In this document: positions 34,784-64,000 of the stretch, piece after piece
How the letters are laid out: each line of letters begins with the position of its first letter
Position numbering within the stretch: the stretch's first letter is position 1
Source of the DNA: Spinacia oleracea
Lineage: Eukaryota > Streptophyta > Magnoliopsida > Caryophyllales > Amaranthaceae
Length of the DNA: 64,000 nucleotides
Direction: 5' to 3'
NCBI RefSeq assembly: GCF_020520425.1
Contig: NC_079491.1
Coordinates: 44,630,027 to 44,694,026, forward strand
Made by a program: the position numbers and the translations under genes
Notes under the pieces: generated by a model
Database searches by the model: none
Told to the model about the DNA's origin: nothing
What the model saw: the letters and a program-made list of their open reading frames with translations, nothing else

Positions 34784-34816
<33 letters not shown>

Positions 34817-36470: not shown

Positions 36471-36493
36471 TTTAATATAGTTAGTATATGAAT

Positions 36494-37070
36494 GATATAG
36501 TTACCTTTATTTTATTTTTTGAAGTGTTTTTATAGTTACCTTAATGTTCGTTGTGGTTATTTTAGTAGTAGTTTTTACATTAATTATATTTTTAACAACA
36601 GTTACTATTATTTTAAAATAGTAACTATGTGTTTAAAATAGTTACTATGTGTTTAAAGTTGTTACTATGTGTTTACAATAGTTACTATGTCTAAAATAGT
36701 TACTTTGTTATAAATAGTTACTATGTCTAATTAACAGTTACTATGTCTAAGAAATAGTTACTATGTACTCAATGATTTAAACAGTTACTATATATCTACA
36801 ATAGTTACTATATGTTATAAATAGTTACTATGTCTAATAAATAGTTACTTCGTTACAAATAGTTACTATGTCTAATAAACAGTTACTATGTCTAATAAAT
36901 AGTTACTATGTGTTATAAATAGTTACTCTATGATTTCAAAGGTTACTATATGTTTGTAATAGTTACTATATCATTCAAATGGTTACTATATTCTATTATG
37001 GTTGCTATATGATTTTAATTGTTACTATATGATTGTAAGGTTACTATATAGTAATATTTTGTCTTATAAT
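36494..37070 (+). repeat. 20-bp tandem repeat array, first visible intron of the Ulp1-like gene
   Basis: Degenerate array with a 20-bp period. Typical units are GTTACTATGTGTTTAAAATA and GTTACTATGTCTAATAAATA. It ends shortly before the acceptor at 37084. Confidence 0.88.
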
Positions 37071-37319
37071 TGTTTTGTTTTCAGTTGCTAAGGATTATGT
37101 GGGCATAAAAAAGAACAAAAAGGTTGACAAGCGCAAAACAAAAGATATTGAGCTTCAACCTGAAATCGAACCAATTGAAGAACCAGAATCTAATCAACTA
37201 GCTTTACAAAATTCTGCTTTGGTTGACGTTGCACATCCTGAATCTTATCAACTTCATTCTCAAGTTCTGAAAGAAGTTGGTGCTGATGGCTTGCCAATTG
37301 TGTAAGTGTTAATTTAATT

Positions 37320-37555
37320 TATATATAGTTACTATATGTTTTAAGTAGTTACTATATCTTTGTAATAAGTACATACTATCTTTATTTTGTAAACAGTTAC
37401 TATATGTTCTAAATAGTTACTATATGTTTTTAAATAGTTACTGTATGTTTAAACATGTACTATATGTTCTAAATAGTAACTATATGTTTTAAATAGTTAC
37501 TATATGTTTTAAACATTTACTATTATGATTCCAAAGGTTACTATATGTTGTTACT
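37320..37555 (+). repeat. 20-bp array, left of the CACTA insertion
   Basis: Units such as GTTACTATATGTTTTAAATA. The last bases GTTACT are the left half of a unit cut by the CACTA element. The array resumes at 58836. Confidence 0.88.
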
Positions 37556-37574
37556 CTACTACAAATCCCGCCTT

Positions 37575-38035
37575 TTGAAGACGCTTTTTGGACCGTTTTT
37601 CGACGCTAAATAGCGTCGATAAATTAGCCCTCGACGCTTTAAGGAAGCGTCGAGAATATTCTCGACGCTTTATGGCGTCGTGCACGGGGACGCTTTTTGG
37701 CGTCCACTTTCATCCTTCAGCGTCGACAACCTCGACGCTTTTCGCCGTCCACAAGATTTTCCCGCTTTGCCCCACCCTTTTCCTAATCATTGTCCTCGAC
37801 GCTTTTTGGCGTCCATAATTTCATCAGCCTAGACGCTTATATGCGTCCACAGGTCTTTTCCTAATCAATGTCCTAGACGCTTTTTGTCGTCCATGTTTTC
37901 TTCAGCCTATCTTTTCTTAATCAATGTCCTCGACGCTTTTTCGCGTCATGTTTTCTTCAGCTTAGACGCCACAAGATTTTTTCCTGTTTTAACATTTTCC
38001 TATTTAATGTCCTCGACACCTACAGGCGTCCAGAA
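37575..38035. repeat. Left subterminal GACGCTTT repeats of the CACTA element
   Basis: About a dozen CGACGCTTTTTGGCGTCC-like motifs occur in direct and inverted orientation within 460 bp. In En/Spm such subterminal repeats are the binding sites of the TNPA protein; the role here is inferred. The matching right-end motifs include the 18-bp palindrome CGACGCTTTAAAGCGTCG. Confidence 0.85.
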
Positions 38036-38153
38036 ATTTATTTTGGCGGGATATTTAATTCAAAATGAGCACGATAATACGACCCCAAAAAAACGTCCAA
38101 ATTATTTGTATGATTAACCTTTTTTTTCCACGTACCTATATATTAATTCCTAT

Positions 38154-38186
<33 letters not shown>

Positions 38187-40405
38187 CATTATTCATCACG
38201 TACAATTATAAATTTAAAATTAAAGTGCAACGTAACACAACATCGATCAATTAATTAACCTGAATTGTGAATACTTGGCCTTCGATTAACAATAAAATTA
38301 ACTTATAATTCATAGTACGTACACGTATGTTACTAACCAGAATCCAAACATAAACGCATATATATCACTAATCGAAATCCTAACCAAATAGTCCAAAACA
38401 ACATGATATCATAAATCAAACCAGCTAGGCCAAGAAAAACTAAAACTTAGAAAAACTAACTAGCTAAGATGTACTACGTACATATATATACTATATGTAG
38501 ATGATCGATGGTAGTAGCTCATATGAAGCTCAAGTGTCTTGGCCTTCATTTTGCTTTTGCACATTATCACGTTGGACGACCTTCAAAGAAAAATACAAAA
38601 TGTAATAAGTACATAATAAGTCGGAAACTTGAACTACGAAGGAAATTAAATACAACATTCAATTCTAGTTTGTTCTATATCATTCACAGAATGTCTATTA
38701 TAAATGAGCAAAAGCATAGCAGAGCCAAGAACATGTCAAAGACCCAGGGGTATAAATACTACAGCTGAACACACACACAGCAGAACACACACACAACATG
38801 CAGGGAGTGATCATGTCAATGACCAGGTGTATAAAACACACATTTTGTAACTGATGATGATACATCATGTTCATACTATCTTTTCTAGCATCATGCATAT
38901 ATATTATCTTTCACTTTTCTGATATTTGGTTGTCTACTAACTTCAGGAACCCGTGAAGCGCGTTGTTTCATTTCAAGATGTTGGAAGAACCCTTGGAGGC
39001 AACAATTCTGCAGTATCTGAGCAAACTGTTCCTGCTCAGATGTTATCATAGTTGCATCAGTTCTACAGTTCTGAGCAAACAGATCTGATGTTATCATACT
39101 GCAGAACTGGTATGATCGCACCCATAAGTCCATAACCCTCAACAAACAGATCCCAATTAAGCTAAACAAGTAAAATGGGGAATTTTACAGTCAGACGGCT
39201 GATATTATTAAGCTAAACAAGTTGTACTTGATCCAACAGGTTCGAACAATGTGCAGCAATTAAGAAACCTAGTCTGATATCATATGAAAGAGTTTAGGGC
39301 AGCAATTAAGAAACCTAGGCTAAATTCAGGAAGCGGCATCATGTGCACAATTTAAACATCAAGATGTTGGATTCTGAGATTTCTGTTTTTCTTTTGTCAT
39401 GATGACGGTGATATGCTAATGAATTTCTCATGCTAGTCAGTAAGCTGAGTTGATTTTAAAAAACTTATAGAAAGCAAGAAATAAAACTCATAAACGAAAT
39501 TGAGCATTCAAATTAGCAGATTATGAACAACTGCCTAATATTCCCATGTGACCTAAGCAATGGTCCAAACCAACTATCACATTTTTAATTGGAAGTTTGG
39601 CATGAACAGTTGGTTTGACATTTCATTCAAGTCAACTGTCAATCAAAATGATGGTGGAATTGTGCAGTTAATACTACTTGACAAAATAACAACACACATA
39701 AACAAATATCGAATGAGTATTTGGTTTCTATTAATTAGGCTATTAACATATTTGAGTGTGAGCTATATACTATGAATCTATATGAGAATTGACAGGTATT
39801 CTGAAAACGGGTGCAAAATATATTGTTTCCCCTCATACGTTACAAATAGTCCTTCTTGGAATCTTGGTACCATCTAATCAACCACCACAAACATGAAAAT
39901 CAAATGAGTATATAGTTACACCCAAGAGAGGAGCATTGATGTAGAAATTAATATCCAGATTCACATTCCACAAGGAGCATTGATGTAGAAATTAATATCC
40001 AGATTTACACATGATTTTCACATGGTTCATTCAATTTTCTACAACTACAATCACACTAGGGTTGAGTTGCTGTAGATATTTTATCTCTTGAATTGGGTAA
40101 TTTGAATAGATATTTTATAATGTGAAAGTCTAGAGCTGGTATTTGTCTACAGTCTAAAGCGCACTTCTTTTAGAATGCTAAAGCGCACTTCATATACTAC
40201 CTTTTCAGTTCCCTGCATTAACTATCAATAAAACTTGGTTTTCAAGCTTTGTTCTGATCAGTTTTAGACAAATCAGTTCTGATCAGTTTCAAGCATCTGT
40301 TTTTGTTTTCAGCTATGTTTATCTGTTTTTGTTTTCAGCTGTGTTTATCTGTTTTGAACACACACACAGCAGAACACACACACAACAGGGAACATGATCA
40401 TGACA
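38036..40405. other. CACTA non-coding region with small duplications
   Basis: It contains an (AT)n microsatellite (38157-38185). A ~48-bp tandem duplication (GGAGCATTGATGTAGAAATT) lies at about 39934-40013. GAACACACACACAGCAG repeats at 38767 and 40357, and GTTTTTGTTTTCAGCT repeats near 40300-40340. No gene recognised; transposase 3' UTR may extend into its right part. Confidence 0.5.
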
Positions 40406-40407
40406 AC

Positions 40408-43400
40408 CTAGAAACAACCTGGATTGTTATGGCTTATACAGATATCAAGTACAGAAGGTAGATGCAGACAAGATGCTCCAAGACAATTCAGATATTCGAA
40501 GTAACCAAATGCAAAAAGAGTTAAATGAGATGAAATTAGAATAATTACCCTTTTGTGTGCCATTCCCAAGACTTCTTGTGCACAATCAAGAGCTTTTGTT
40601 GAAGCAGTTCCTGTACGAACTTGACCTACTAGTTGAGCAAATTGTCCAATAAGAGTTTTAAGCAGCCAATTATTCTCTTTCACTTGCTCTTGCAGCTTTC
40701 CATTTTCCTTCTCAAGTGTTTCGTTTTTCTTGTTGATAGCTGACACTTCTTCTTTTACATTTTCCATCACCACGGTCCTATGTCGAACTTTTCCATACCC
40801 ATTCTTCCTTAGCACACCCTGCACTCCATAAACGTCGCTCGTTCGAACTCCAAGTCCGTAACCAACTGGACGTTCTGGTACCTTTCCACCATGCATAGTG
40901 TCCTCAAAGGCAATATTCTCGAGTTCTTGTTGAGACTTAGAAGGGTCTACATTCTTCAGCGATTCAACCATGGCCTTTGCATCATCCTGCACAAAAAAAA
41001 TAGGATAACAATGCAAGATTAATTTCAGAAACTGTTTTGGACACATTTAGTGTAGTGTGGACTGCAAGTATTTAAATCAAATAGCTTAATAATATGGACT
41101 CATACAACAAAATCTTCAGTGAGTGTGTTTGGAAGAAAGGTCCCGTCCTTGCCCGTATGAGTCTTTATCCAAAGGGCTAATAAGCTCATTTTTACTCCAT
41201 GCTCGTCTTCCTATACATGAGTAGCAATGTAAGAAGTATTAAAGAAAATCTAGAAAGATGACACCATCATGAAATAAATAAAAGAATTAATGATTTGTAC
41301 ATAATCAGCTTGTTGGTTCGCATAGCTATTAGAACCAGATCTATGAAATTGAGTTTGGGAGGCTCGTGCTTCTTTTCCACAGTCTGACAATTTCTGCACT
41401 CACATTCAAAGAGATTTATTAAGAAAACAATAAACAAAGATTAATCAAACTTCAATTAAAAACATGGTACTTACTTGCCCTTCATCTGAATACCAAAATC
41501 TAACCAACTTTATCCACTCCTTACTGCTAATTCCATGTTGCGGAACTGCTTCTGTGGTCATCTCTGTTTCTGTTTTCTCCTCTGGTTTGTAGTAATCTTT
41601 CTTGAGAGAGTATTTATACTGCTTCCAGCTTTTATTGGCACGCTTGAGAATTTGTGTGACGTATATTGGACCATCAGGAATAACAAAGCGATCCTGCAAA
41701 AAATGATTTGCCACAATCAGCATAGGAATCAAGTCAGACTGCTGGTTTTCAATCATATTTCAGATTTCCAACCATATTTCAGGTGCTACTGATTTCCAAT
41801 AATACTTGGTATTTACTTTTTGTGGGTGAATGATGCATTTCAACATTGAATAATCTGATGATTTATTGACGTTTATAGGTCTAATTAAGTAAAACGAAAC
41901 AGATGCATTTCATGGGAGTATCAATACAGTTTATGTGATGGACCGTACAGGCCGTACCACCAAGCCACCTACTCACATAGTCTATCACAGAAGAAACAAG
42001 AGGGGACAACATATAACAGCAGACCTGCAGAACAACAGCCATAACAAAGGGCAGCAAGAGGCACAGGAAATAGAGGAAGAAAGAAGAGAGCAGTAGTTAA
42101 GGAGTTTGCAGTACAATTAAGAGACTTGTAACCTAAAGTTACTAACTTGGAGAATAGTGGCCTCAAGCTACTGATTTATGTATGAACCTTTATCAATTAA
42201 ATCAATCAAGCTCTCTTTCCTAGTTGCTGTGTCCTTTTCATTCTGTTTCTGCAGGTGGTTCTTGCAAGTTTATTTCAGTTTATAGGTCTCTTTTAAGTAA
42301 ATTGAAGCAGATGATTTCCTAAGATTATACTTACATCTATCTCTTGTAACAATTTAGATTTTAGAGCCGCATCGACCTTTTTCCAGTTCTTGTATCCAAC
42401 TGGACAGTATGCCTCCATCTTTGCAAGGCTCCCAATGAATCTGACCAAGATCTGTCCACCTTTCCTAAGCGGTTGACACAAGTCATTGAATTCAACAAAG
42501 TACTTGATGCCATTGTTACTCCAGACATCGATTGTCTGAATAGGACCACTGGCCACTCCATAATTACCCTTAGCATCTGCATAAAAAGAGTTCAGACATC
42601 TTTAAACAGCCCACGATTAAAGCAATCATATAAATTGATGATAGTCTATGTATTCAATGATAATCTCTGCTTGCATTTAACGCGAGAGGTATAATCAGTT
42701 TGCTTGTTTGCTATCTGACAAGTAAACTGTCGTCTTATTTAAGTTAGCATATAAGATACACTTGAAGAACGGTTGCAATGTTTTGATACCTAATACTAAA
42801 CTTAGTTTTCTGTAATTTTATTTCTTCTTATTCACCAACAGGTCGTTTTTCTGAAATCGGTTGAGCTTAAAACAAAAATCAGGAAATCAGGAAATCAGGA
42901 AATCATTTAATATGGACTATTATTAACTTCTAAAAACATTACGATTATCATGAGATGCTTTTATTAAACTTTAAGATATAAGGACAAGGGAAACTATATC
43001 TAATGGTTAAAAATTGAACTTACCGATGGTCATAACCTCTTCCTTGTCATCAAAATCTACATTATCACGCCATTCTGGATATTGCCGTAAGGACTTCGAT
43101 TTTTTTGAGTTCCCTTTTGGTTCTTGAACACCTTCTGCAGGGTATTTCGGTGGTTTTGAAGGTGGGATACTAGGTTGAATATTAGGTGTGTTCTGACCGG
43201 AGGAAGGAGAAGGGTATTTCGGTGGTTTTGAAGGTGGGATACTAGATTGAATATTAGGTGTGTTCTGACCGGAGGAAGGAGAAGGGTATTTCATTGGTTT
43301 TGAAGGAGGGATACTAGGTTGAATTGAAATCTTGGAAGTAATCTTAGGTGGAATTTTATTTCCAGTTGATGCCTCGAGTGAATTTGATGTTGATCCAGTA

Positions 43401-43666
43401 GGTGGTGTTTTCCATATAGCTTGCTGTGCACTTTTAGCAGTACTCGGACATGGAGGTGCAACCATCGATGCAGTGGTACCTGGTGGAGAGAATGGTCCAA
43501 ATCTAACAGACTTAGGAACCTCAGATGGTTGTGATTGAGTAGCATGCTTTTTGGTTGGCTGTGATGCATCTTCACTCAAAGATGAGGTACGTGATGGTAG
43601 CGAATTTGATGCTAATCCAGTAGCATCTGTTTCAATTTTGACTCTAACCCTCTTGCGATAAGTCAT
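40408..43666 (-). CDS. TNPA-like CACTA protein (Transposase_24 family)
   Basis: Visible exons on the minus strand: 43666-43024, 42576-42335, 41693-41475, about 41394-41303, about 41213-41107, and about 40987-40548 with the end uncertain. Exon 1 (from MTYRKRVRVKIE) is Ser/Pro-rich, with tandem PSIPPSKPPKYPSPSSGQN repeats. Exons 2-5 carry the Ptta/En/Spm family (PF03004) hallmarks: FVEFNDLCQPLRKGGQILVR, SWKQYKYSLKKDYYK, ISSKEWIKLVRFW, and a GTFLPNTLTEDF-type segment. Exon 6 has a coiled coil (NKKNETLEKENGKLQEQVKE). In En/Spm this protein binds subterminal repeats. No stop interrupts the visible exons. Some splice borders are by eye, and the last exon was not settled. Confidence 0.8.
43105..43320 (-). 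repeat. In-frame tandem repeats in TNPA-like exon 1
   Basis: Three units of about 63 bp encode PSIPPSKPxKYPSPSSGQN-like peptides. Units 2 and 3 are almost identical at DNA level, pointing to recent in-frame expansion. Confidence 0.85.
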
Positions 43667-43868
43667 CCTTACTATGTAGCAACTGCAAGACAAGTCACAA
43701 AAAAACAGAATATTAGCAAGCAAGGCAACTGAACTAATGAAAACAACTGAAATGGACAAATGAACAACTGAACTAATGGAAACAACTAAAATGAACAAAT
43801 CAGAACAACGGAAATAATGAAAACAAATTATATGGAAGTGAGCCTTTGAGTGACCAGCTGTTCAGAAT

Positions 43869-43996
43869 AGATTAGCAACAAAGGACAGACTACTGAAGTG
43901 GAATTTGAGTATTGTTGGCAACTGTGGCTTATGTCAGTTGGCCGATGAAACTCTTTCCCACCTGTTCTTCTCATGCCAGTTCTCACAGGAAGTTTA
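43869..43996 (+). pseudogene. LINE zinc-binding (zf-RVT) fragment inside the CACTA
   Basis: The plus strand encodes RLATKDRLLKWNLSIVGNCG then LCQLADETLSHLFFSCQFSQ, with the C-x2-C...H-x4-C pattern of the plant LINE zf-RVT domain, followed by a stop where Trp is usual. Only about 43 residues remain. It lies just upstream of the TNPA-like start, on the opposite strand. Confidence 0.7.
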
Positions 43997-44129
43997 GAGT
44001 CTGGTTTTGCAGTGTTTGGGTGTTAGTAGAAGCATTTGGTAGAAGTGCAAAGAGCTGTGAAGAAAAGTAGAAGAAGCAGGAGTGCAGACTGTAGATACAA
44101 CATTGCATTTCTAGAAACAATCTATAGTA

Positions 44130-44222
44130 TGACTCTATATTGATTTGAAGGAGTATTTTGTAAGTAATCAAATTATATTGCATTATATTGATTTGAAGGA
44201 GTATTTTGTAAGTAATCAAATT
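44130..44222. repeat. ~43-bp direct tandem duplication in CACTA
   Basis: Two near-perfect copies starting TATATTGATTTGAAGGAGTA lie head to tail. Confidence 0.85.
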
Positions 44223-44339
44223 ATCAATTGCATTATCTGGATGATGAAACCGGCAAAGAGAAAGGAGAGGTATTTTTCTAATATGGTTGCTGCAGGTATA
44301 GGAGCTCAGAAGAGAATATGTATATAGCTAGCATGATTG

Positions 44340-46250
44340 ACAAGATAATTGGTTGTACTACTCACAGCTAGTCGAGAACCAGCTCTTACACATGCAATCC
44401 CACCCCAGTTCAACTTCATTTTTTTAGGCCTATAGCTGGTATTATATTCTAATTTGCCTGATATGATGACGGCTACCATAGCCACAATATTCTACCTCTT
44501 TGTTCAAGAACTCTAAACTGACAGTTAGAACTCATGAAATTCTGCATAACTATCAGGAATTAAAACCAATTACATAAACAACAGGCAGAAACTTAACAAA
44601 TGTTTACTTCTAATCAGATAAAATATAGCAGGTCTAACAGAACCATCAACCAGGGCAAAACAGGGCAAAAGAATCAATGAAAACAAGGGGGCACCCTTGG
44701 AGGAAGTGCTGTGTATGGCATATAATGAAGTTCAACATTTAATTTGAGCATATAAACTCTTCAACACACAATATAAACAGTTAACGTTGAAATAAACAGC
44801 AATGACCTATATGCAAAATCAAGCTCAATGCACCATGCAATGACACTGGCCATGTAAGAATCTATTGATCATTTCACTATCCAACAGAAGCAAAAGAGCT
44901 TAAGAGAAAAGAAGAACGAAATATGCAAGAAGCACATGTAATTTCAACCTCGTTGCCAAAAAGAAATGAATGAATTAGTTATTAGTTATTCCACAATCAA
45001 GAATGCAGATAAGATTCCTCTATTGTGATTCCGGATTTAAACATAAAGAACATGTATTAATCTGCCCCTAGAAAGTCTCGGGAAGCTTCTGCAAACATCA
45101 TAATAATCCACATTCAATACAGAAACTATTATCCAGATCAAAGCAAGTGAATGGCTTCTTTACTGAATTGGATGCTTGCAAGTAACTTTCTGACAAACTT
45201 ACTCCACGACTCAAACCTGGAGCTTTAAACAGAGTTACTAAACACAAACTAGCAACAAATCTTGTTGATCGTCCAGAATATGATTTCAGTATTTCAGCAA
45301 ATACATCCAAATCATAAGAAAATCTAGGCTTACTGCCAGTCCCATCACTATAATATTTTGATCACTTCAATCACAGTAGTTGATTACTTCAATCAAATTT
45401 GATGTCAAATCACTTTAAAATTGCCAGTCCCAGGACTCCTAAGTCCTAACTCATATATTATACTCAAGTTAACAAACAGAAATGGAGATTGGCTTATAAA
45501 TGACTCCAACACATCCAGTTTCTCATCAAAGTTTGATATGTCAGCGATAAAAAACCAATACACTCAACTGATAGCAGCTCACTAAAGCCCACACTATAGA
45601 ACACCAGTTATTACTCAATGGAGATTGGCTTTATAAATGACTCCAACGCATCCAATTTCTCATCCAAATTTGATTTCTCAGCGATAAAACAATCAAAAAT
45701 ACACTCAACTGATAGAAGTCACTAAAGCCCACACAACAGGACACTAGTGGTTACTCAAAAGTAGACTGTGCGCATCAGAAAACCATTATGGAGGAGGCTT
45801 AACCCTAGTTTTTCTAGGGCGTTGACTTGTAAAATACAGAAACTATTATCCAGATCAAAGCAAGTGTTATAAAGTTGGCAACACAGCAAGGCAGCAGCAA
45901 GAATCTGTTGAAAGACTTACTTCTAGATTTAGAGTTGATCAGGTACTACAAGTTCATCCCCAAAACTAAAAGCACTTCTTTGTGTTCTGCATAAGCCAAA
46001 AAAAAACATGTCAGCTATAAGTCAAGTTTTGTGTTAAATAAAGAGTTGTAGCAGTTAAGCAGGATACGAAATAGAAAAGGAAATCTCATAAAACAAATAA
46101 GCAAAACACCATTCAATAAGTAATATAAATATAATGACAACGTTTAACTGAAATTAGTATAACTAAATGAAATATCATTTTACACGGTGAAAAAGAAGTT
46201 CATAACTCGAATCCAAAAGAAAAATAATGAACTCTATAAACTATGACAAA
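44340..46250. other. Region between the two CACTA genes
   Basis: Non-coding. A ~135-bp tandem duplication lies at about 45482-45755 (units start AATGGAGATTGGCTTATAAA and AATGGAGATTGGCTTTATAA). AGAAACTATTATCCAGATCA occurs at 45121 and again at 45838. The TNPD-like gene ends at 46256 and the TNPA-like gene starts at 43666, so this span probably holds the TNPA promoter and TNPD 3' UTR. Confidence 0.5.
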
Positions 46251-46255
46251 GAATT

Positions 46256-49200
46256 CTATAAATCCAAAACACTATCATTTAGAAGCTCATCATCATCGTC
46301 ATCATCAGGAATATCAAACAAGTCCCTAGGCTTAGTCTTAATAACATGAAGCCATCCTTTTTGTATCTCATCCTCAATGTAAAAAACTTGTTTTGCTTGA
46401 GAAGAGAAAATAAATGGATCATCATCCAAATTTTGACCAGTGTGCATCAACTTTGAGAAATTGACACGAACTCTATCGTTCGTGTATGTTTTGACACCCC
46501 TCCGTACATCAACCCAGTCACATCGGAACATTAGAACCTTGAAAGAACCATAATAATCCAGTTCTAATATTTCATTAAGTTTCCCGTAATACTCTTGGCC
46601 ATCAGCTTCTACCATAATTCCGGAATTTTGAGTCTTTCGAGATCGCTCACGGTCCACGGTGTCAAACTTATAGCCATTGATAATAACACTTTTCATCCTT
46701 TTGCCGCGATTGCTTAAACCATAGGCCAAGGCTTTTCTTAATTTTCCTTCTTTTGTGCTATCATCTAGGTCATTGGCCTATAATTCGAAAAACATAAGTT
46801 TTAGATTGGTAAATATAAAAAATAAATAAGGAAATCCCAAATTTAAAAGCATATGACCTTGTTTAGCAACCAATCGGAAAATTCATTGATTATCCACCGA
46901 CTTTCTTGAACTTCTTCAACTTGATTCTCTTGCCGTTTTTCTTGTAGGAAGGCCCTTTAGAAATAAAAAAATTCGAATTACTAACAGTAATGACCGATAC
47001 GCTCTAAAATAACCCATGACACTACTTACTCAAGCACCGGTTTCATCTCATCTGAATGAAGCAAAACATAACGATGTGCTTGCTTTAAACTTTTGTCATC
47101 AACACGGACATTCTTTTTCATCCCCACTACACGACCAGCAGAGTCATATAAATAGTTGTTGATGTCTGGAACACCATCTTCATTCCTTTTCGGTCTGTTG
47201 AATATGGTCTCGACACTTTCTAAATATCTCGAACAAAAAGCAATTGTTTCCCATAAAAGGTACCCTTCAGCTATGGATCCTTCTGGTTGCGCTTTATTGC
47301 TTACATGAGATTTCAAAAAGGCCAAATACCTTGAAATATAATGAACAGGATTGTGAACGTGAAAGAATAAGACAAGTATTGCGATGTATTCTTATTTTAA
47401 AATGATTAAAAAAATATTGAAGTTTAAGATATTGACCTCTCAATGGGATACATCCACCTATAATGAACAGGTCCACCGAGTTTGACCTCCTCCACTAGAT
47501 GAATTAGTAGATGCACCATGATTGTGAAAAAAGTTGGCATAAACTCTTTCTCCATCTTACAAAGAGTCAACACAAGCTTCGACTGAATGGTATCTAATTC
47601 ACTTCTTTCAATAGCAGCTGAACATATCTTCTTGAAAAAGTACGACAATTCATCGAGCAAATCAATTACTTTTGTAGCATTAGATGCTCTTAAAGCAACA
47701 GGAAGGACATCTTGCATGAGCATATGATTGTCGTGGCTTTTCAGATTAATAAGTTTTCGTTGCTTCAAATTCACACACCTTTGCAAATTAGATCCATACC
47801 CATTAGGAACTTTAAGATTTTGTAGGACTGTAAGAAATCTTTCTTTCTCTTCTTTAGACATAGTGTACGCAGCCGGAGGCAAATAGTCGTTAACACGACT
47901 TGGATGAGATTGAGGCCAAAGATGAGATTTTATGTTCAGTTTTTTAAGGGCCAATCTAGCATTCTTATCATCTCTACTCTTGCTCATATCTAAAAGAGTT
48001 CCTAAGAAATTGTCACATACATTCTTCTCAATGTGCATAACATCTAAGTTGTGTCTAAGAGGATTATGTTCCCAATATTCTAATTCAAAAAGCTTACTTT
48101 TCTTTTTCCACAGAACACGATTAGACTCATCCTGGTCATTATCATCATTATCATCATCATCATCATCAAGTTCATCATCTTCTAGTCTCCCTCTTTTTTT
48201 CTGAACAACTTTTGACTTTCCATACACATACTTAACTTTTTCTTGTTGCTTCAAAACTTCTGTCCCGCTTACACGAACCGGAGCAAGACCATGTTCCTCT
48301 GTCCCATCAAATTCATTTGTTTGAGAACGATAAGGATGGTCAACTGTAACCATTTTCGACACCCAGGGTAGACAATTTTACCACCAAAACTATAAGAATG
48401 AGTAGAATCAACACACGAAGGGCAAGCTTTATAACCTCTTGTACTCCAACCCGACAACATAGCATATGCTGGAAAGTCATTTATAGTGGAGTGTAAGGCT
48501 GCTCGCATCTTGAAATTTTTTCCGCTATAAGCATCAAAGGCATCTACACCTTCCCACAACAATTTTAACTCATGGATTAATGGTTGCAAGTACACATCAA
48601 TATCCATACCAGGACCCTGTTTCCCCGGAATAAGCACAGACAAAATAAATGATGTCGACTTCATACAAAGCCACGGTGGCAAATTATAAGGAATCAGGAT
48701 CACCGGCCATGTACTATAACTAGTATTCATCAAACGATATGGATTAAAGCCATCACTTGCTAGACCCAATCTAACATTACGAGGATCTTTGGCGAATTCC
48801 TCATATCTTTTATCAAACATTTTCCAAGCTTCACCATCCGCCGGGTGACTTATGATATTTCCATCCTTGCGGTCAAAATGCCATCTCATGTCCTCTGCTG
48901 TTTTAGATGACATGTAAAGTCTCTTTAGTCTAGGGATCAGAGGAAAGTACCGCATCACTTTAGCTGGAACACCCTTCTTACATGTTCCTTTGTCTTTCAC
49001 ACTACTCTCACCCTCCTTTTCTTTCACATTCTTCCACCTTGATCTGTGGCAGATATGACACTCACTTTTTCCTGCAAATTCGCCCCAATATAACATGCAA
49101 TCATTCGGACATGCATGGATTTTCTCGTAACCCAATCCCAAATCATTCATTATCTTCATGCCTTCATAATACGACGATGGAAACCCCTTAATATAAGGAA

Positions 49201-49834: not shown

Positions 49835-51847
49835 GTCTAAGAAAAAAAAAATTATAATTATAAATAAACACACTTATAGAAAACAAAGAACGATTAAACC
49901 ACATTAATCTGCAAATAATTAACATCGCATTCTCGTTTAGTTTTTTGGGTGATCTGTACATAATATTTCTCTTATTTTCTCATAACATATAAAGAACATA
50001 CAAAACAAAAGTTATTGACCATGGTTTATAATTTGCAACTATAATCTCTACATTTTTTTAAGTATTTTTCCCATGAGATGGGTTAACAAGTTGATATCAT
50101 GATCATTAAGTATAAATTGTTTAGCAAATTTTCACAAAACCAACAAAAACGACTAGTTAAACACCACAATTGAATCAACAAAACAAAAATAAATTAAATA
50201 CGCAACGAACTGAAAATCAAGACACAAAATTATCCATAAGATATATTGCAAGCAAATAAAAATAAATTCACAAAGAAAATATTATTGCAAGCAGGAAGCA
50301 GCTACCAAATAAAAATCATACTACAGGCATGTACTGAAATCTGGATTCCAGGTTACTGCAATTGGACCACCAACTGTCCCTCCTAATTCATTCAAGTTTT
50401 CTGTTTTTTTCCTTATTACTGACATTCTACATTCCACCATAAAAGAACCTCCCATATGGATTCCGCAATATAGTCACCTGCACTTCCATGGCCATATTTT
50501 TGTAACTTCAAATTCAGGATCATCATATCAGCTCTGTCCATATACAATGAAAAAGAAACCCTGCTGCTGTTTTAGGATATGATTGCAGGAAACCGAAGAA
50601 CTTGACAAGGGATATCTATACCCGTGCTATCTAATAAAAAGGCCAGCTAATAATACCACATCCAACCAAATTATGGTAACAGAGATAAAGATTTCTACCA
50701 TCTTACTTAGATTACAGGGGGTCAAAGAGAGTAAAGTCTGAACTGACGAAAATTAAAAGATGCAAAGTGTAACACAGAAGTCCATTCAGCTTCTCCCCCT
50801 TCCCCTAATTACCTCCTAGAGAAAGTATGAAAGTAACAGAATTGATTAAAGCCCGAGTTTATTAGGATCTTTATTATTCTTTTTCGTTGCCTAACTACCG
50901 AGAATTATTACTACAGAATCTCCAAAGCTCTAAAACTATACTTTGTATGTATCAAATATACAATGAATCTTGCTCACGTCCTACAATTGTAACCATACAC
51001 CTGACCAATTGATTATCCAATTCTCCTGAAAGCTATGGGAAACATCAGACCAGGGGTTAACGGTGCTTGTCAGAAAATCGAATCATATCTACAAATTTCA
51101 AGTAGAATTATGAAGAGAGCAGAGACTAATTAGACCTAAAATAACACCAAAACAAACCCTAACTTAATATATTTAACAGTTTGAAACCCATCATTCCCTT
51201 GTTCACACTTCACAACTGTTCAAATCACTACAAATGGCAAGGATCAAGCACAACAATGTATGCCTCAAAAACAACTTTCAAGGAACAAGCACCAAACAAG
51301 AGGAGGGAAGAAAAGTAAGAACCTAGCAACAAATTGATACAAACAACCAACATATAAGTAAAAAATAAAATAAATTAAAATCAGGAAACACGAATGTAGT
51401 ACTAAAATATTAAAGTATTAAACTATTATATAAGTACATTCACGCAATGCATGCTGAGAATCAGGCAAGAACGTTTGGTACAGCTCACAGTCCCACCTTC
51501 CATCCATGAGGTTGGGAGTTCAATTCTCATTGAACCTAACATCATGGATAGGAGTCATAAGACTCATAGGAGGGTGATTAGATTAGTGGTCGTTTCTCTA
51601 GCCACGTGAATAGGGTTCTCAATATCAAAATTGTGTTCCTCCTATGACTATCTGTCTATCCTTACCCTACCTCCACAAGGATGGATGAATGGTCCTCTAG
51701 TCAATAAAATAATTAAAAGATCAGAAAATTCACAATTAAGCAACACAAACTTAAAGATTATTGCAACACCAAGCAACATTATGTCCACCATAGCAGACAG
51801 AATCACACTAAATGCAAAAAAACTACGCTGCAGAAAACATAGTTAAA
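49835..51847. other. CACTA non-coding region between TNPD-like gene and the triplication
   Basis: AT-rich, without recognisable domains. It probably includes the TNPD-like promoter. At 51470-51540, TGGTACAGCTCACAGTCCCACCTTCC-like sequence and GGTTGGGAGTTCAATTCTC (B-box-like) hint at a decayed tRNA-derived SINE, unproven. Confidence 0.4.
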
Positions 51848-54075: not shown

Positions 54076-56455
54076 ATCTAAGTACGGACTAAAAGATTTT
54101 CCATGAATGCAACATGACCAACCATGAAAATACCCAAATCGGCATACCGTAAGGCTACCATTGGGGTAAAGCAATACACGCTAAGAGGGAAGCCGCACTA
54201 ATGATTTTAGTCTCGCAAAAATAAAAATGGCACCAATTCACGCGTTCTATAAAAGAACAGCCAACAAACACAACACTAAAAAGGGAATTCCCGGAGTGCA
54301 AAGCATAACAAACAAAAAGAGTGAGAAATAGATAAAGTACCTTAGTGAAAACCCGGAGCAGCAAGGGACAAGTCTGTAACCAGGACAAGAAATGTATTAC
54401 CAACATTAGTAGATACTTCGTATAGAACAAAACCATTCCCCTGATAAGTAACAACTAGAACATGAACAATTGAGCATATCAAATATCACTAGCACACTAA
54501 GTAAACAGTTTTGAAAATGCACCCTTTAAATAAATAGCATCCCATCCAGAACCAACAACATTGAATGTTTCGAGAACTCGTGAAATCAGATGTCAAACAC
54601 GCTCAAGTAAATCCGCATTATTCTGGTAAGAAAATCACCCTAATAAAGAGACTATAATGAATACAAGTCCCTTTTAATCAGGAGACACAATATTACTCCA
54701 ATAAAGGGACAATTGTCAATTTACCACCTCAATTTCACATCGTAAAGCAAGAAAACCCTAAAAAACCTCCAAAAAAATCAAAAAGCCAGAAGATTAACAT
54801 TAATTAGTGTTGACAGATACTTATTCAGGTTTTCAGCAAAATCAGGAGCTATTAGGCCTGATATTGAATACTCCTTGAGAATTTGTTTGACGCATGTTAA
54901 TCCATGTCAGAATTTTCTTATAAACACCATATATGCATAGATAGATGCCATCATTACTTTGGGGAAGGCAAACATATAGCTAAACTAATAGCATACTCAG
55001 GCCTAAAATAAAGTTTAGAAGACGTTTGTGTTTTAGTTGTGGCCTAACAATCTCCAATATAAATACAACAATCAATGGTAAAGCAAATCAAAGACGAAAT
55101 GTAAACTCTGAGATGTATTGTAAATCATTAACCTTTAATCAAAGAGAAGTCACCTCTTTATGGGTGCGAAAGTGAATACAAAGGTGAGTGATAAGAACTC
55201 GATTTAAGCAATAAACAAGCACAAAGGATAAAATCAATCACACTTTTCATGAATCAAAGCACAAAAAACAACAACAGATTAATAGTGTACGTATATATAC
55301 TGTCATTTAACAACTAAAAAAATAATCATGCTTCGCATTCAAAAGATAACCAACATCTATTTTACGCGATTTCAAGACAAAAGCTCCAACTTGCATAAAA
55401 CCAAATTGAAACGAACAGGCTATACTTTGAAGTTTGAAGTCTTGAACTCCCAAACTTTGCATCAATATACATTAGGCTGTGTTTGTTATTAGTGGATCCC
55501 AATGGCAAGAAACCGAGGACAACTTTTGGCAATGTAAACTGTTGCTACTGCTATAATTCCCACTCCCCGCATTTTGAAATCGATTATACACAGAAAATAA
55601 AAATACTCTGCAATCCAGCATATCTAACCAAATATAACACACTAACACAATTTCAGCCCAAGCCAAACAACCAATCTCAAATTGAAATATACCTAAATAT
55701 AAACAAGCCCTGCGAAACTCTCAGCAAATTGGAAATTGAAAGAAAATTGAAAAATAATACAACAATCATAATTATACAACAATCATATTGAAAAGAAAAT
55801 TGAAAAATAATACAACAATCATAATTATACAACAATCATATTGAAATTTTCAAAGAAATTTGAAAGAAAGATAAATTTTGATGAAGAACAGGGTACATAC
55901 CTTGGAAATTCAAGCCCACAACACGCAAAAACTGATTATTAACAACGCGATTTTCCACCACTGTGACTCGTGAGAGGATGAAGATGAATAAATTAGCAAG
56001 AAATTAAATATTACACTAAATTGACAATAACGAAAAATAAAAAACAGAGCAGATTAATGGCGTCCTTCTGATTAAAGGTGGACGAACCTGAAGAAAAGGG
56101 CGAGAGGATTAATGGCGAGAGGATTGGAGATTATCAGATCGAGAAGAAGAAGATGACTATCTTTAGGGTTTGAAAGTCGTGGGCTGGGAGGATGAGTCGT
56201 GGAGTTAGGCAATGTTAGGCGGTTTCAAAAATAAATTTCTGTTTTAGCGCGATTTGATTTTCACAAAATTCTGAGTATTATTCGCAGCACGTGCTTCTCA
56301 CGTGGATTAGGTACGGTTTCTTCGACGCTTTAAAGCGCCGACAACGTTGTGGACTGTTATTAGCGTCGTGGCCACACGAGATTTTTCCCCCCGCAAAATC
56401 AATGCCTTTGGCGTCCAAGACCAAGCGTCCAAAAAGGGTATGTTTTGTAGTAGTG
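54076..56455. repeat. CACTA right-end unit, copy 2 with linker
   Basis: 2,380 bp: linker 54076-54222, then a copy of the right end. It ends in TTTTGTAGTAGTG. Private changes include GCGCCGACAAC in the subterminal palindrome. Changes shared with copy 3 (for example CCCGGAGCAG, GTCTGTAACC, TACGCGATTT) place copies 2 and 3 closest to each other. Confidence 0.93.
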
Positions 56456-58835
56456 ATCTAAGTACGGACTAAAAGATTTTCCATGAATGCAACATGACCA
56501 ACCATGAAAATACCCAAATCGGCATACCGTAAGGCTACCATTGGGGTAAAGCAATACACGCTAAGAGGGAAGCCGCACTAATGATTTTAGTCTCGCAAAA
56601 ATAAAAATGGCACCAATTCACGCGTTCTATAAAAGAACAGCCAACAAACACAACACTAAAAAGGGAATTCCCGGAGTGCAAAGCATAACAAACAAAAAGA
56701 GTGAGAAATAGATAAAGTACCTTAGTGAAAACCCGGAGCAGCAAGGGACAAGTCTGTAACCAGGACAAGAAATGTATTACCAACATTAGTAGATACTTCG
56801 TATAGAACAAAACCATTCCCCTGATAAGTAACAACTAGAACATGAACAATTGAGCATATCAAATATCACTAGCACACTAAGTAAACAGTTTTGAAAATGC
56901 ACCCTTTAAATAAACAGCATCCCATCCAGAACCAACAACATTGAATGTTTCGAGAACTCGTGAAATCAGATGTCAAACACGCTCAAGTAAATCCGCATTA
57001 TTCTGGTAAGAAAATCACCCTAATAAAGAGACTATTATGAATACAAGTCCCTTTTAATCAGGAGACACAATATTACTCCAATAAAGGGACAATTGTCAAT
57101 TTACCACCTCAATTTCACATCGTAAAGCAAGAAAACCCTAAAAAACCTCCAAAAAAATCAAAAAGCCAGAAGATTAACATTAATTAGTGTTGACAGATAC
57201 TTATTCAGGTTTTCAGCAAAATCAGGAGCTATTAGGCCTGATATTGAATACTCCTTGAGAATTTGTTTGACGCATGTTAATCCATGTCAGAATTTTCTTA
57301 TAAACACCATATATGCATAGATAGATGCCATCATTACTTTGGGGAAGGCAAACATATAGCTAAACTAATAGCATACTCAGGCCTAAAATAAAGTTTAGAA
57401 GACGTTTGTGTTTTAGTTGTGGCCTAACAATCTCCAATATAAATACAACAATCAATGGTAAAGCAAATCAAAGACGAAATGTAAACTCTGAGATGTATTG
57501 TAAATCATTAACCTTTAATCAAAGAGAAGTCACCTCTTTATGGGTGCGAAAGTGAATACAAAGGTGAGTGATAAGAACTCGATTTAAGCAATAAACAAGC
57601 ACAAAGGATAAAATCAATCACACTTTTCATGAATCAAAGCACAAAAAACAACAACAGATTAATAGTGTACGTATATATACTGTCATTTAACAACTAAAAA
57701 AATAATCATGCTTCGCATTCAAAAGATAACCAACATCTATTTTACGCGATTTCAAGACAAAAGTTCCAACTTGCATAAAACCAAATTGAAACGAACAGGC
57801 TATACTTTGAAGTTTGAAGTCTTGAACTCCCAAACTTTGCATCAATATACATTAGGCTGTGTTTGTTATTAGTGGATCCCAATGGCAAGAAATCGAGGAC
57901 AACTTTTAGCAATGTAAACTGTTGCTACTGCTATAATTCCCACTCCCCGCATTTTGAAATCGATTATACACAGAAAATAAAAATACTCTGCAATTCAGCA
58001 TATCTAACCAAATATAACACACTAACACAATTTCAGCCCAAGCCAAACAACCAATCTCAAATTGAAATATACCTAAATATAAACAAGCCCTGCGAAACTC
58101 TCAGCAAATTGGAAATTGAAAGAAAATTGAAAAATAATACAACAATCATAATTATACAACAATCATATTGAAAAGAAAATTGAAAAATAATACAACAATC
58201 ATAATTATACAACAATCATATTGAAATTTTCAAAGAAATTTGAAAGAAAGATAAAATTTGATGAAGAACAGGGTACATACCTTGGAAATTCAAGCCCACA
58301 ACACGCAAAAACTGATTATTAACAACGCGATTTTCCACCACTGTGACTCGTGAGAGGATGAAGATGAATAAATTAGCAAGAAATTAAATATTACACTAAA
58401 TTGACAAAAACGAAAAATAAAAAACAGAGCAGATTAATGGCGTCCTTCTGATTAAAGGTGGACGAACCTGAAGAAAAGGGCGAGAGGATTAATGGCGAGA
58501 GGATTGGAGATTATCAGATCGAGAAGAAGAAGATGACTAGCTTTAGGGTTTGAAAGTCGTGGGCTGGGAGGATGAGTCGTGGAGTTAGGCAATGTTAGGC
58601 GGTTTCAAAAATAAATTTCTGTTTTAGCGCGATTTGATTTTCATAAAATTCTGAGTATTATTCGCAGCACGTGCTTCTCACGTGGATTAGGTACGGTTTC
58701 TTCGACGCTTTAAAGCGTCGACAACGTTGTGGACTGTTATTAGCGTCGTGGCCACACGGGATTTTTCCCCCCGCAAAATCAATGCCTTTGGCGTCCAAGA
58801 CCAAGCGTCCAAAAAGGGTATGTTTTGTAGTAGTC
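56456..58835. repeat. CACTA right-end unit, copy 3 with linker
   Basis: 2,380 bp, same structure as copy 2. Its end is the functional right end of the whole element; the last base is C where copies 1 and 2 have G. Confidence 0.93.
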
Positions 58836-59330
58836 ACTATATGTTCTAAACAGTTACTATATCTTCTAAATAGTTACTATATGTTCTAAATAGTTACTAT
58901 ATGTTATAAATAGGTTCTATGTGTACTATGTGTACTATAGTAACTATATTATTTGAAAGGTTACTATATGTTTTAAACAGTTACTATATCTTCTAAATAG
59001 TTACTATATGTTTCTAAATAGTTACTATATGTTATAAATATGTTCTATGTGTACTATAGTTACTATATTATTTGAAAGGTTACTATATGTTCTAAACAGT
59101 TACTATATCTTCTAAATAGTTACTATATGTTCTAAATAGTTACTATATGTTATAAATAGGTTCTATGTGTACTATGTGTACTATAGTTACTATATTATTT
59201 GAAAGGTTACTATATGTTTTAAACAGTTACTATATCTTCTAAATAGTTACTATATGTTTCTAATAGTTACTGTATGTTTTAAACAGTTACTATGTGTTCT
59301 AAATAGTTACTATATGATATATAAAGCTGA
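58836..59330 (+). repeat. 20-bp array, right of the CACTA insertion
   Basis: Continuation of the array at 37320-37555, with units such as GTTACTATATGTTCTAAATA. It contains a higher-order repeat of about 120-150 bp (about 58850-59270), marked by TATTATTTGAAAG. It ends just before the acceptor at 59357. Confidence 0.9.
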
Positions 59331-60414
59331 CTTACTTTCATTATTCATTTTTTTCAGGTTTAATTTTGATACACAATGTTCAGGAGGATCATTGTGTAAA
59401 TTAATTAAAGACTTCTCTCCTGATCAAAAGGCAGCTGTTCAAGAGATAGGGTTTGGAGGATTGTTAGGCCTTTAATTAAGTCGAAAAAACACTCAGATGA
59501 TGTACTGGTGCATCAAGTGCTTTGATGGTGTGAGTTCTCTGTTTACAATCAGTGATTCCAAGCAATTTGAAATCACTGATTATGATGTGTACGATTTGTT
59601 TATGCTCCACCTTTCTGAGCTGGAGGTTGAAAGGGTTAAACGTGGGCGCAATTCCACTAATCCTGATTTTGATTTGAAGATCAAGTGGAGAAAAGAGTTC
59701 GATTTTGAAGAGGTCAATGCTCAAATTTCTCTAAGGTTGCTTGAGGACAGGATTAAATTGTTGACAGATGGCGGTGATCTGTTTAAACAATTATTTATTT
59801 TTGTTGCTTTCTCTACATTTTTTACTCCAACAGCCAATAGGACTGTAGATTTGAGATTGGCTAAGGCTTTGGAAGATCCTAAAATGATTCCCAAATACAA
59901 TTGGTGTAAATACGTTCTTGACGTATTATGTGAGGAAACAGTGAAATTTAAAAATTGTTTATTGAAAGGCAAAGATTAAAAGACATTTGGAGGATGTGTT
60001 GTGTTTTTGCAACTTGTGTATTTTCAGAGGATTAAGTTTAGGAATTCCAGTGATATACCTGATCAATTACCTCTTATTCAGCATTGGACATCGAAGATGG
60101 TAACCGATCGGATTCATGCTGAAAGTGCCAATATGAGTGCATTATATGGTTCTGGTATTTTGGAGAAGGAGAAGTATCCAATTTCCAAAAAGTTTGTTTT
60201 TGTTGATGGTCAAATAGATTTGACACAAATCAAATCTATTTCGAAAGAAAATGAAGCTGGCAGCAGTGGGGGAAGAGCTGAACGGCCCTATGTTGGCTGT
60301 CGAATTCCAAGTCGGCGTCCTAGGATTCTTCAGTTTGAAATCCTTGAATCTCATCCTACTGATGAAGAAATTTTCTCTAAAGCCACTGATGTAAGTTTAC
60401 TTTATTATTGATAT

Positions 60415-60840
60415 ATTTGTCAATATATAGTATAGTTATTTTTTATATGCTATAGTTATCTTTTATACACTATTGTTATCATTATCTTTGGTTTAGTAAA
60501 TGTAGGTATATATAGTTATCTTTTATATTCTATAGTTATCTTTTATGTACTATAGTTATCTTTCATACACTAAGTTACCATTACTTTGTTTTAATAAACA
60601 GTAACTATATGTTTTAAACAGTTACTATATGGTATAAATAGTTACTATATGTTTTATATTACTATAGTTATCTTGTGTATACTATAGATATCTTTTATAT
60701 ACTATAGTTACCTTTTATTTACTATAGTTATCTTTTATTTTCTATAGTTATCTTTTATATTCTATAGTTACCTTTCATATACTATAGGTAACTTTTATAT
60801 AGTTATCTTTATATACTATAGATACCTTTTCTTATAATAT
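60415..60840 (+). repeat. 20-bp array in the intron after the second exon
   Basis: The dominant unit is GTTATCTTTTATATACTATA, a variant largely confined to this intron, with a few GTTACTATATG units in the middle. Confidence 0.88.
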
Positions 60841-61574
60841 TTTTTGTAGTTTTAATTAAATTTTCATATTATGTTCCATATTTAAATTTATGTATTTTGT
60901 TTTTTAGGATTTTCATGGTCAGTGGTTGTTGATGAAGAGAGATCTGGATGTAGTTTCAGCCATCCATGCTGAAGAGCTGTTCAAATTAAAGGCTTCAATG
61001 CCTTCGCAGAACCATGGCGATGATATTTTGGAAAATTCCACTTATCAAAAGATGGTTGATGAGTTGGTGGAGATTCATCAATTGGTGAAGAATCTACCAA
61101 ATGGTAGGGATGATATTTTTGGTTCAAGTAACAATCTAGTTGTTACCGTTGCCCCTCGACCTTCTGCCGTTGTTCCAACTGAGCCTGCAAGTTTGTGTAC
61201 TACTGCTATTGTTGATGCAACAACATCTACCCAAGCATTTATTCGAGAAGTTGATCCTGACACTCAAATACATGAAGTTCTTGATTCTTTGAAAAGCAAA
61301 GCTAAAGAAACTACGGAGGATGATGATGAAGAAATGGAAGAATATGAGCGCGTGTGGGCTGCATTTCAAAAATGCATCATTAACAACCATGCTATATCAA
61401 GAGTGAATGTCAGTGTCTATGGCATAGAGGAAAATGTGATGTTTATGTCTCCATTTATGATAGCATTTGAAGATTTAATGAGGCATCTTCCAGCATTTGT
61501 TCAAGAAGTTGTGGACTTTGCTGCTTTGACTGATGGAGAGGGTATTTTGAATGAGTAAGTAGAAGTTTTTTCAT

Positions 61575-61925
61575 TTAATAATTTATAGTTACCTTTCATA
61601 TAATATAGTTACCATTCATATATTATAGTTACCTTTCATATAAAATAGTTACCTTTCATATATTATAGTTACCTTTCATATATTATAGTTACCTTTCATA
61701 TAATATAGTTACCTTTCATAATTTATAGTAACCCTTCATATAATATAGTTACCTTTCATATAATATAGTTACCTTTCTTAAAAGTGAAGTTGCTGCCTTA
61801 ACTTTATAGTAACCTTTCATATAATATAGTTACTATTTGTATACTATAGTATCCTTTTGTTTACTATATTTACCTTTTATATTCTATTGTTATTTTTATT
61901 TATTATAGTAACCTTTATAATTCTT
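61575..61925 (+). repeat. 20-bp array in the intron after the third exon
   Basis: The dominant unit is GTTACCTTTCATATAATATA, repeated about fifteen times with few changes. It starts within 30 bp of the donor at 61555. Confidence 0.9.
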
Positions 61926-62599
61926 CTGACATATTTATTGTTTCTTTTTTATGTTTTTCAGTGATAAAGTTGTAGAATACAATCATTTTATTGCGGTAGC
62001 AAGAAATGACATGTGGACACTTCCTTCTACATTTGATATTCTTTTGATTCATATTGAATCTTGGGCTTTCTTATTGAATGAAAATGAAAGGAATCCTGCC
62101 GGTTCTCCTCAGAAGCTGTTTTTAGGTGGCACATATTGTGTAAGTTATATTTTTAATAATATAGAATGTTAATTATTTTAAATTTTTTTGGCCTTTGTTT
62201 AATTTTTCTTTTAATATTGATTTGCAGAAATATGTTGCTGATTTGATTGAGAAACCAGACAATGAAAAAGTCTTGTCTGAATTGTGTGTTTGTCTTAATT
62301 ATGGTGTGAAAGATATAAATGGAGTTCAATCGTTGAAAGATTGTAATATGGTATGATTTATATTTTCTTTATATAACCATATTATCTTCTTTTTTTCTGT
62401 CTCCTTTCTTGTAGTTGTAATATGTTGTTTTTCTTTTTTATATAGATTTTTGCTCCTGTTCTGATTGAAGACACGAAGCATTATTACCTGTTTGTCCTTA
62501 GTATGAAAGACAAGAGTGTCTATTTCGTTGATAATATGCTTCTGGAACCAAAAGAGATGGAACAAAGGAAGAAATCTTATTCTGTCTTGGTAAGTTTTT

Positions 62600-63207
62600 T
62601 TTATAGTTACCTTTTTTTTTTGTAGTTACTCTATAAATGTATAGTTACCCTTATATTAGTCTTTCTTTGACAAGGTTACTATTTGTTTAAAACAGTAACT
62701 ATGTTTTTAAAATAGTTACTATCTTTTCTAGAAAGTAATTTAACTTTAAAGCAGTAATTATGTTTTATAAATAGTTACTGAGTGATTTAATAGGTTAGTA
62801 CTATAGTTACTATATTATCTGAAAGGTTACTATATGTTATGCAATAGTTACTATACTGTTTTAGAAATAATTATGTGTACAAAGAGTTACTCTTTATAAA
62901 ATATAGTAACTCTTTATACAATAGTTACTATATGATTCCAAAGGTTACTATATGTTGGTAATGGTTACTATATGATTTTAATGGTTCCTATATGATTCTA
63001 ATAGTCACTATATGATTTTAATAGTTACTATATGATTTTAATGGTTACTATATGATTTTAATAGTTACTACATGATTTTAACCAACTGGTAATAGTTACT
63101 ATATGATTTTAATAGTTACTATATGATTTTAACGGTTACTATATGTTGGTAATAGTTACTATATGATTCCAAAGGTTACTAATGTTGGTAATAGTTACTA
63201 TATGTTT
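62600..63207 (+). repeat. 20-bp array in the intron before the Cys exon
   Basis: The dominant unit is GTTACTATATGATTTTAATA in the right half, with more diverged units on the left. It almost fills the intron 62590-63214. A short stretch of similar units is also present at 63480-63541 in the last intron. Confidence 0.9.
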
Positions 63208-64000
63208 TGTACAGTGTTCTTCATTGGAAAAACTACTGAAAGATATGGATAACATTCATCATGAAGATATTAGAAGCTTCAAATTTATCCTGGTCGGTGG
63301 TAATTGGAAGCGAGGTGCTTATGACAAAGACTGTTGTGTCTATTTGATGATGTTTATGATGGTCTTTCATGGTGTTGAAACGGTACAAGATGGTGTTTGA
63401 ATTTTTGACTTTGATCCCTTGGAAGATGTAAGTTTTTGTGTTAAAAATAATTATTGTTATTCATATTTTCTTTTCATTCTTTATAGTTATTGTTTTGTTA
63501 TCATAGTTACTGTTTTTATTATATATAATAGTTACTGTTCAAATATTTGCAGGAGGATTTCAGGAAGTTTCTCAGGGCTTGTATGTGTGGCACCATTGTG
63601 TTGTCAGATTTGAATTGTTGCAGAGATGAATTTCTGAAACGAATGGTTGCATTCAGGAAAAACATGAAACAAGATGTTTTGGATGCCCTAATTAAACAAA
63701 GGGAAGAGTTGGTGCAGAAATACATGAATGACGCTTCAAAAATTGAAATTGTTGCAAGAAATAATTCAGCAAGGAAATCCAAACATGTTGAAACAGAAGA
63801 TGAAGCTGAGACAGATGTCAATGTTGAAGAGAAAGGACGTGGCAAAGGCGGGAGACGCGCCAGAGGAGGCAGACGCAGTAAGGGACGTGGACGAGGTTCT
63901 TCACGTGGTTAATAATCATTGGTGAAAAAACAATTTAATTTTTTGTGTTAGTATGTAGTCAAATTACTGTTTAGAAAGTACAATTAATTCTAATTTTGAT

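Follow-up and report, generated by a model that had tools for sequence, protein, structure and literature searches.

We analyzed a 64,000-nucleotide window of the Spinacia oleracea genome (C5:44630027-44694026; contig NC_079491.1) in which a single plus-strand gene carries arrays of a 20-bp repeat in its introns. We show that this is the companion gene, antisense to the transposase, of a ~12-kb Mutator-like transposon that is not of the terminal inverted repeat type (non-TIR). Its first recognised exon (37085..37301), upstream of which the true 5' end of this VANC-like gene was not seen, has 82-85% DNA identity in ten of ten genomic copies taken with 20 kb each. It is followed by exon 2 (59358..60390; weak DUF1985/plant mobile domain (PMD)-like region, placed by domain matches), exons 3 (60908..61554) and 4 (61962..62139), exon 5 (62228..62350), which lies between array-free introns of 88 and 95 bp, exons 6 (62446..62589) and 7 (63215..63427) of a C48-like region supported by domain matches, and a last exon encoding an Arg/Gly-rich C-terminus (63553..63912). 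Frame joins define exons 3 to 6 and the last exon, mapping in the copies also supports exons 3, 4 and the last, and three exon borders were adjusted by reading. Joined, the eight exons keep a single phase up to a frame end at 63912, with in-frame stops at 59473, 59977 and 63398, and all eight mapped in each of the ten copies, with AG/GT borders throughout in eight of them, in agreement with the single gene proposed by the initial annotation.

Tandem Repeats Finder (TRF) identified six arrays of 20-bp period in the window, all on the plus strand of this gene's introns and extending close to splice sites. Array A, with which the repeats start at ~36474, occupies the intron 5' of the first recognised exon (36474..37084; unit AAATAGTTACTATGTGTTTA; TRF spans 36591-36989 and 36897-37049), arrays B (37302..37557; AAATAGTTACTATATGTTTT; TRF 37325-37549) and C (58834..59357; AAATAGTTACTATATGTTCT; TRF 58831-59316) are the left and right parts of one split intron, and arrays D (60391..60907; CTATAGTTATCTTTTATATA; TRF 60424-60830), E (61555..61961; ATATAGTTACCTTTCATATA; TRF 61584-61916) and F (62590..63214; TAATAGTTACTATATGATTT; TRF 62920-63208) lie in the introns downstream. 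Beyond TRF and lag analysis, arrays A to C were assessed by their consensuses, D by block and unit comparisons, E by genome search and unit comparison, and F by unit comparison. The strongest lag was 20 in all six array introns or intron parts (identity 0.58-0.68, above maxima of 0.40-0.47 in 200 dinucleotide shuffles of each), and the per-intron TRF results agreed both with this constant period and with the dominant units first described. The repeat had been described as filling the gene's long introns and as seeded in all of them; six arrays were indeed found, two of which are one array that has been split, and lag 20 was absent from the 88- and 95-bp introns. The 125-bp last intron (63428..63552) holds only a few units, and its period did not rise above its own shuffles in the lag analysis.

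Within the window, the repeat was found only across the span of this gene. At one mismatch or fewer, AGTTACTATATG had 56 matches in the window, all within 36479-63204, against 0.29 expected, a count reached by none of 100 shuffles. The motif ATAGTTA occurs 65 times on the plus strand and 5 times on the minus strand in 2,940 bp of arrays and is absent from 2,915 bp of the gene's exons, which bears out the avoidance of exons described earlier. Adjacent AGTTAY motifs were spaced by 20 bp 34 times and by 40 bp 9 times (best period 20.7); helical phasing was considered as a separate signal and set aside, being indistinguishable from the repeat unit itself.

Most of the gene's apparent length is foreign. 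A CACTA transposon on the minus strand (37558..58833; tnp2, Transpos_assoc, DUF4218 and DUF4216 domain matches, with junctions) sits within the array, and its 21,276 bp contain ATAGTTA only twice on each strand. As the insertion is almost free of the repeat, arrays B and C are one array split by it. The gene placed at 36494..63541 by the initial annotation is real, but ~21.3 of its 27 kb are CACTA sequence unrelated to the repeats, and it is a multicopy companion gene of a Mutator-like element (MULE) rather than a host gene.

The copy number and ends of the element were examined by searching 894,210,420 bases in 242 contigs. Exon 2 had at least 119 matches (117 scored of 1,320 candidates), of which at least 52, the window copy included, were near-complete at 86% identity or more (36 at ≥92%, 16 at 86-91%); distant matches had 42-48% identity. 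Among the ten copies examined, all seven with both ends located were flanked by identical 9-bp target duplications, and six of these seven elements were 11.5-12.5 kb long, the seventh being 14.3 kb. Terminal inverted repeats were absent from the single copy checked, c4_38, whose two ends agreed at 23 of 60 letters and gave no match anchored at the ends. The right end was found at 58 exact places genome-wide and its reversed control at none. In copy c4_145, a transposase on the strand opposite the companion gene contains FAR1 (8.9e-15), MULE (PF10551; 9e-16, 58.6 bits against a cut-off of 27.6) and SWIM (1.7e-4) domains. By the features tested, the element is a MULE. The window copy continues to a right end 5.4 kb past the window; no left end was located, at up to four mismatches, in the sequence from position 34001 on.

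The predicted companion protein combines a C48/Ulp1-like domain with a weak DUF1985/PMD region. Peptidase_C48 (PF02902, cut-off 20.7 bits) matched the C-terminal exons of the window copy (5.5e-6, 26.8 bits), the full intact copy c4_38 (27.3 bits) and the C-terminal parts of c4_38 and c3_65 (30.6 and 27.3 bits). DUF1985 in exon 2 was weak in the window (0.011) and in the intact copy (0.0075); at E ≤ 0.1 it was found in seven of eight family members (best 5e-4), and PMD in four of eight (best 6.7e-9). Exon-2 structure prediction gave mean predicted local distance difference test scores of 37.7 alone and 37.3 with an 8-row alignment, so that the models were useless, and of two Protein Data Bank sequence searches one returned no match and the other a single match at E 0.41, which was taken as chance.

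The companion frame was open to its end in three of the ten copies. The ratio of nonsynonymous to synonymous substitution rates (dN/dS), computed over 683 codons of six exons, was 0.13 for c4_38 against c3_65 and 0.15 for c4_145 against c3_65, 0.45 and 0.66 in closer pairs with few changes, and 0.73 and 0.29 for the window copy against c4_38 and c3_65, respectively; comparisons with c4_20, which used 219 codons, gave 0.43-0.56. The low values between subgroups and the higher ones in the window copy indicate that the protein was constrained between subgroups and that the window copy is decaying. With three stops and its left end lost, the window copy is a dead remnant.

Although the repeat had been described as a feature of introns, it fills the non-coding DNA throughout the element. 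In five complete copies, [AT]TAGTTAC occurred 88-111 times in 6.2-7.1 kb of non-coding DNA, never in the 2.9 kb of companion exons, once or twice in the 2.4-2.5 kb of transposase open reading frames (ORFs), and at most once in 7.5-8.5 kb outside the element. In c4_145, arrays are present in the left region, within companion introns, between the genes, in the intervals separating transposase ORFs and in the right subterminal kilobase, the last of which, beside the transposase gene, is the densest block (31 motifs in 1 kb). The arrays are mostly co-oriented, with some on either strand. Genome-wide, the paired core ATAGTTAC-N12-ATAGTTAC was found at 3,327 places and its reversed control at 4, and the array E sequence GTTACCTTTCATATAATATA at 101 exact places with none for its reversed control. 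A scan of viral contigs for the repeat unit gave no match.

The core ATAGTTA(C) is common to all arrays and the flanks vary by intron. In an alignment-free comparison, ATAGTTA was the 7-mer with the highest minimum density across the six arrays. Of the 20 possible 8-letter blocks, ATAGTTAC had the least between-array divergence in the window, c4_38 and c3_65 and the second-least in c6_15. Because array D was set in register by hand on GTTA, the block-divergence and unit comparisons favour the core; the 7-mer densities and the paired-core counts are independent of that register. The intron-specific variants reported earlier were borne out by the flanks, since units from different introns differed by 2.38 of 20 mismatches more than units from the same intron (largest of 2,000 label permutations, 0.66; four introns, array A excluded).

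We compared the window's units with those of other copies, using units chosen with the window's four consensuses as templates. For 82, 79 and 80 of 102 window units, the nearest unit in c4_38, c3_65 and c6_15, respectively, came from the same intron (77-80%; chance 27%). The same was true of 75 of 102 units in L035, a paralogue of 90% identity (chance 25-27%), and of 53 of 102 in L037, a paralogue of 80% identity (chance 25%), both of which have the same core and arrays. Such agreement across copies implies old variants, inherited according to position. Local homogenisation, as first proposed, did not give rise to the variants in this copy alone.

The architecture of the element is that of the VANDAL elements of Arabidopsis and their VANC companion proteins, with another motif, and on this basis we consider the arrays to be probably, though by no means certainly, target sites of the VANC-like companion protein. 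VANC21 binds YAGTATTAY, and in VANDAL21 (Hiun) copies of this motif are densely packed in tandem, with a common orientation, in introns, between genes and in the terminal DNA; the VANC6 targets AGTTGTCC/AGTTGTAC likewise form tandem repeats in introns and elsewhere in non-coding DNA (PMC5735166). The spinach element, like VANDAL21, is a MULE that makes 9-bp duplications and whose inverted repeats are degenerate or missing; it also shares with VANDAL21 a companion gene besides the transposase and dense co-oriented short-motif repeats, which lie in non-coding DNA, avoid exons and evolve together (as described for VANDAL21 in PMC5735166, PMC10398659 and PMC6446971). It resembles VANDAL6 in its tandem repeats in non-coding DNA and in that AGTTGTCC/AGTTGTAC begins with AGTT, as does AGTTAC of the core here, a likeness of first letters that may be due to chance (PMC5735166). 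Some VANC genes carry a Ulp1 domain, and elements carrying KIU recognise motifs likewise, according to a review (PMC13317346); by the description given there, these KIU/Kaonashi Ulp1-carrying VANC genes of non-TIR MULEs share the C48/Ulp1 domain of the companion gene here.

By analogy with these systems, the spinach companion protein would bind the core ATAGTTA(C/T), which recurs about every two turns of the helix, and could strip silent chromatin from its own element, as VANC does in Arabidopsis VANDAL; protein binding, which had been called conceivable, stands as a possibility. The arrays in introns, intergenic DNA, gaps between ORFs and subterminal DNA would then be dense, mostly co-oriented sites for the element's own protein, and letters outside the core may drift, become fixed per intron by repeat turnover and afterwards be inherited.

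Several differences and results weigh against this interpretation. VANC proteins carry DUF1985 and DUF287 (Hosaka et al., PMC5735166), in contrast to the weak DUF1985/PMD region and C48 domain here; DUF1985 in the intact copy scored 16.7 bits, below the Pfam cut-off of 35.1, and a scan of the complete 970-aa joined protein of the window copy, with X in place of each stop, reported no Peptidase_C48. DUF1985 itself occurs at no fewer than 149 places in the genome (150 of 893 candidates scored), most of them above the cut-off, and none of the 101 such places compared, on C1, C2, C3, C5 and C6, coincided with a place of the companion family. The published motifs YAGTATTAY (VANC21) and AGTTGTMC (VANC6) had no exact match in the 2,940 bp of arrays, whose core is ATAGTTA(C), unlike the YAGTATTAY of VANDAL21. 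The transposase carries FAR1, which a table of MULEs gives for Jittery and some other groups and not for VANDAL (PMC6446971). Given FAR1 in the transposase and DUF1985 below its cut-off, we do not file the element as a VANDAL member, a placement by domain content. Like the Jittery/FAR1-type MULEs of group 36, it has a transposase with N-terminal FAR1 and C-terminal SWIM; as listed in that table, group 36 has one ORF and a target duplication of 8 bp or not indicated (PMC6446971), whereas the element here has a 9-bp duplication and, antisense to the transposase, a large array-bearing companion gene. Finally, anti-silencing has been demonstrated for VANDAL21 and is putative for the spinach element.

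Companion proteins also occur without such arrays. We examined six distant paralogues (L030-L034 and L036; 42-48% identity) in stretches of 6.5-10 kb, in which L030, L032, L033 and L036 had no such array and L031 had only 18-bp repeats near two ends, so that the gene is not always accompanied by arrays. Conversely, arrays occur without an evident companion gene: among 100 paired-core places listed, all on C1, 70 formed six of 17 clusters lying within 15 kb of a companion-gene or transposase match, and the other 11 clusters had no such match, the match lists being lower bounds. None of these 11 clusters held an exact right end, which makes a further element family sharing this core likely, though not shown. 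Even so, the contrary case, that the arrays are dispersed microsatellites unrelated to this gene family, did not hold. Two clusters, C1:5620693-5624002 and C1:14736445-14739901, have a double ATAGTTAC at 20 bp with other flanks and in mirror order and no companion or transposase match listed nearby, and perhaps belong to another element family that shares the core.

The arrays could instead be a neutral minisatellite, a 20-bp repeat spread through the element's non-coding DNA by slippage and unequal exchange and missing from exons only because insertions there kill the gene. This explanation, which we regard as unlikely, gains from the within-array mismatch, which ranked the core block only 5th to 7th of 20, and from an equal-weight alignment of array consensuses that gave no significant core (5,614 of 20,000 permutations were as low), although that alignment had array D out of register. 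The arrayless introns of 88 and 95 bp and the persistence of arrays in the dead window copy are also as it would predict. It accounts poorly for a single core that recurs throughout the non-coding parts of the element and is nearly absent outside it, that is common to arrays with different flanks, and that is still present in the 80%-identical paralogue.

We consider it improbable that the 20-bp units are instead bound by the FAR1-type transposase as subterminal repeats. Subterminal repeats of CACTA/Spm elements are bound by their transposase, FAR1 is a DNA-binding domain, and the densest block of c4_145 adjoins the transposase gene near the right end, but the arrays lie deep in companion-gene introns and are not confined to the ends. 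A role on the transcript or nucleosomes, as intronic splicing enhancers or phased nucleosome positioning, would suit arrays of 20-bp period near splice sites and is very improbable for arrays that are also intergenic and subterminal, occur on both strands and are missing from two introns of the gene.

Returning to the reading of the arrays as companion-protein target sites, the distant relatives suggest how motif and protein might diverge. L034 (42%; C5:62823500-62833499) has its own diverged transposase and 22-bp arrays with CTTATATGATA, a different core, both inside an intron and next to the transposase. A diverged transposase (eleven matches compared) lay within 50 kb of five of eight distant companion matches, at 5.4 to 47 kb; two additional places of 47% identity, with many stops, did not enter this comparison. 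The 18-bp repeats of L031 (C3:152327000-152336999) lie at ~217-452 and 7601-7835 of the reversed locus and have CCGGAAACGG/CCGTTTCCGG letters in opposite orientation. The DUF1985 places form a second large gene set, distinct from the companion family in the 101 compared. As a tentative proposal, this may be a lineage of FAR1-type MULEs, separate from the VANDAL clade in which VANC was described, with a sequence-specific anti-silencing system of its own, made up of a C48/PMD-like protein and 20-bp ATAGTTAC arrays, with a sister lineage in which protein and motif changed together to a 22-bp array of another core, and with other core-sharing elements that share or exploit the protection.

Other occupants of the window were also noted. 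The last 2.38 kb of the CACTA element is a tandem triplication with ends at ~54073, 56453 and 58833; in an ungapped comparison, copies 2 and 3 are 99.5% alike and copy 1 is 94% alike to both, and copies 1 and 2 are followed by the same letters and copy 3 by the repeat array. To the left of the MULE copy, 34784-36277 on the minus strand is an apparent 5'-truncated long interspersed nuclear element (zf-RVT, RVT_3) with a run of 32 T at 34784-34815 (TRF), adjoined by a 99-bp tandem duplication at 36278-36469, where the MULE left end is missing. Parts of a Gypsy-type retrotransposon lie at 21665-28296, with a Transposase_28 ORF on the plus strand and gag and reverse transcriptase on the minus strand.

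In the titles and abstract openings returned by literature searches, neither this element nor its motif was reported. A 2022 EMBO J paper on anti-silencing in eudicots reportedly mentions helical periodicity in its abstract and may already describe such cases. Should the arrays prove to be target sites, a single genome would hold graded lineages, with companion proteins ~95, 90, 80 and 42-48% identical, of which some have the same core, one has another core and period, and some are arrayless. The co-evolution of anti-silencing protein and repeat, known from Arabidopsis, would then be testable outside Arabidopsis with another type of transposase, and an unusual repeat in introns can be the sign of a transposon companion gene.

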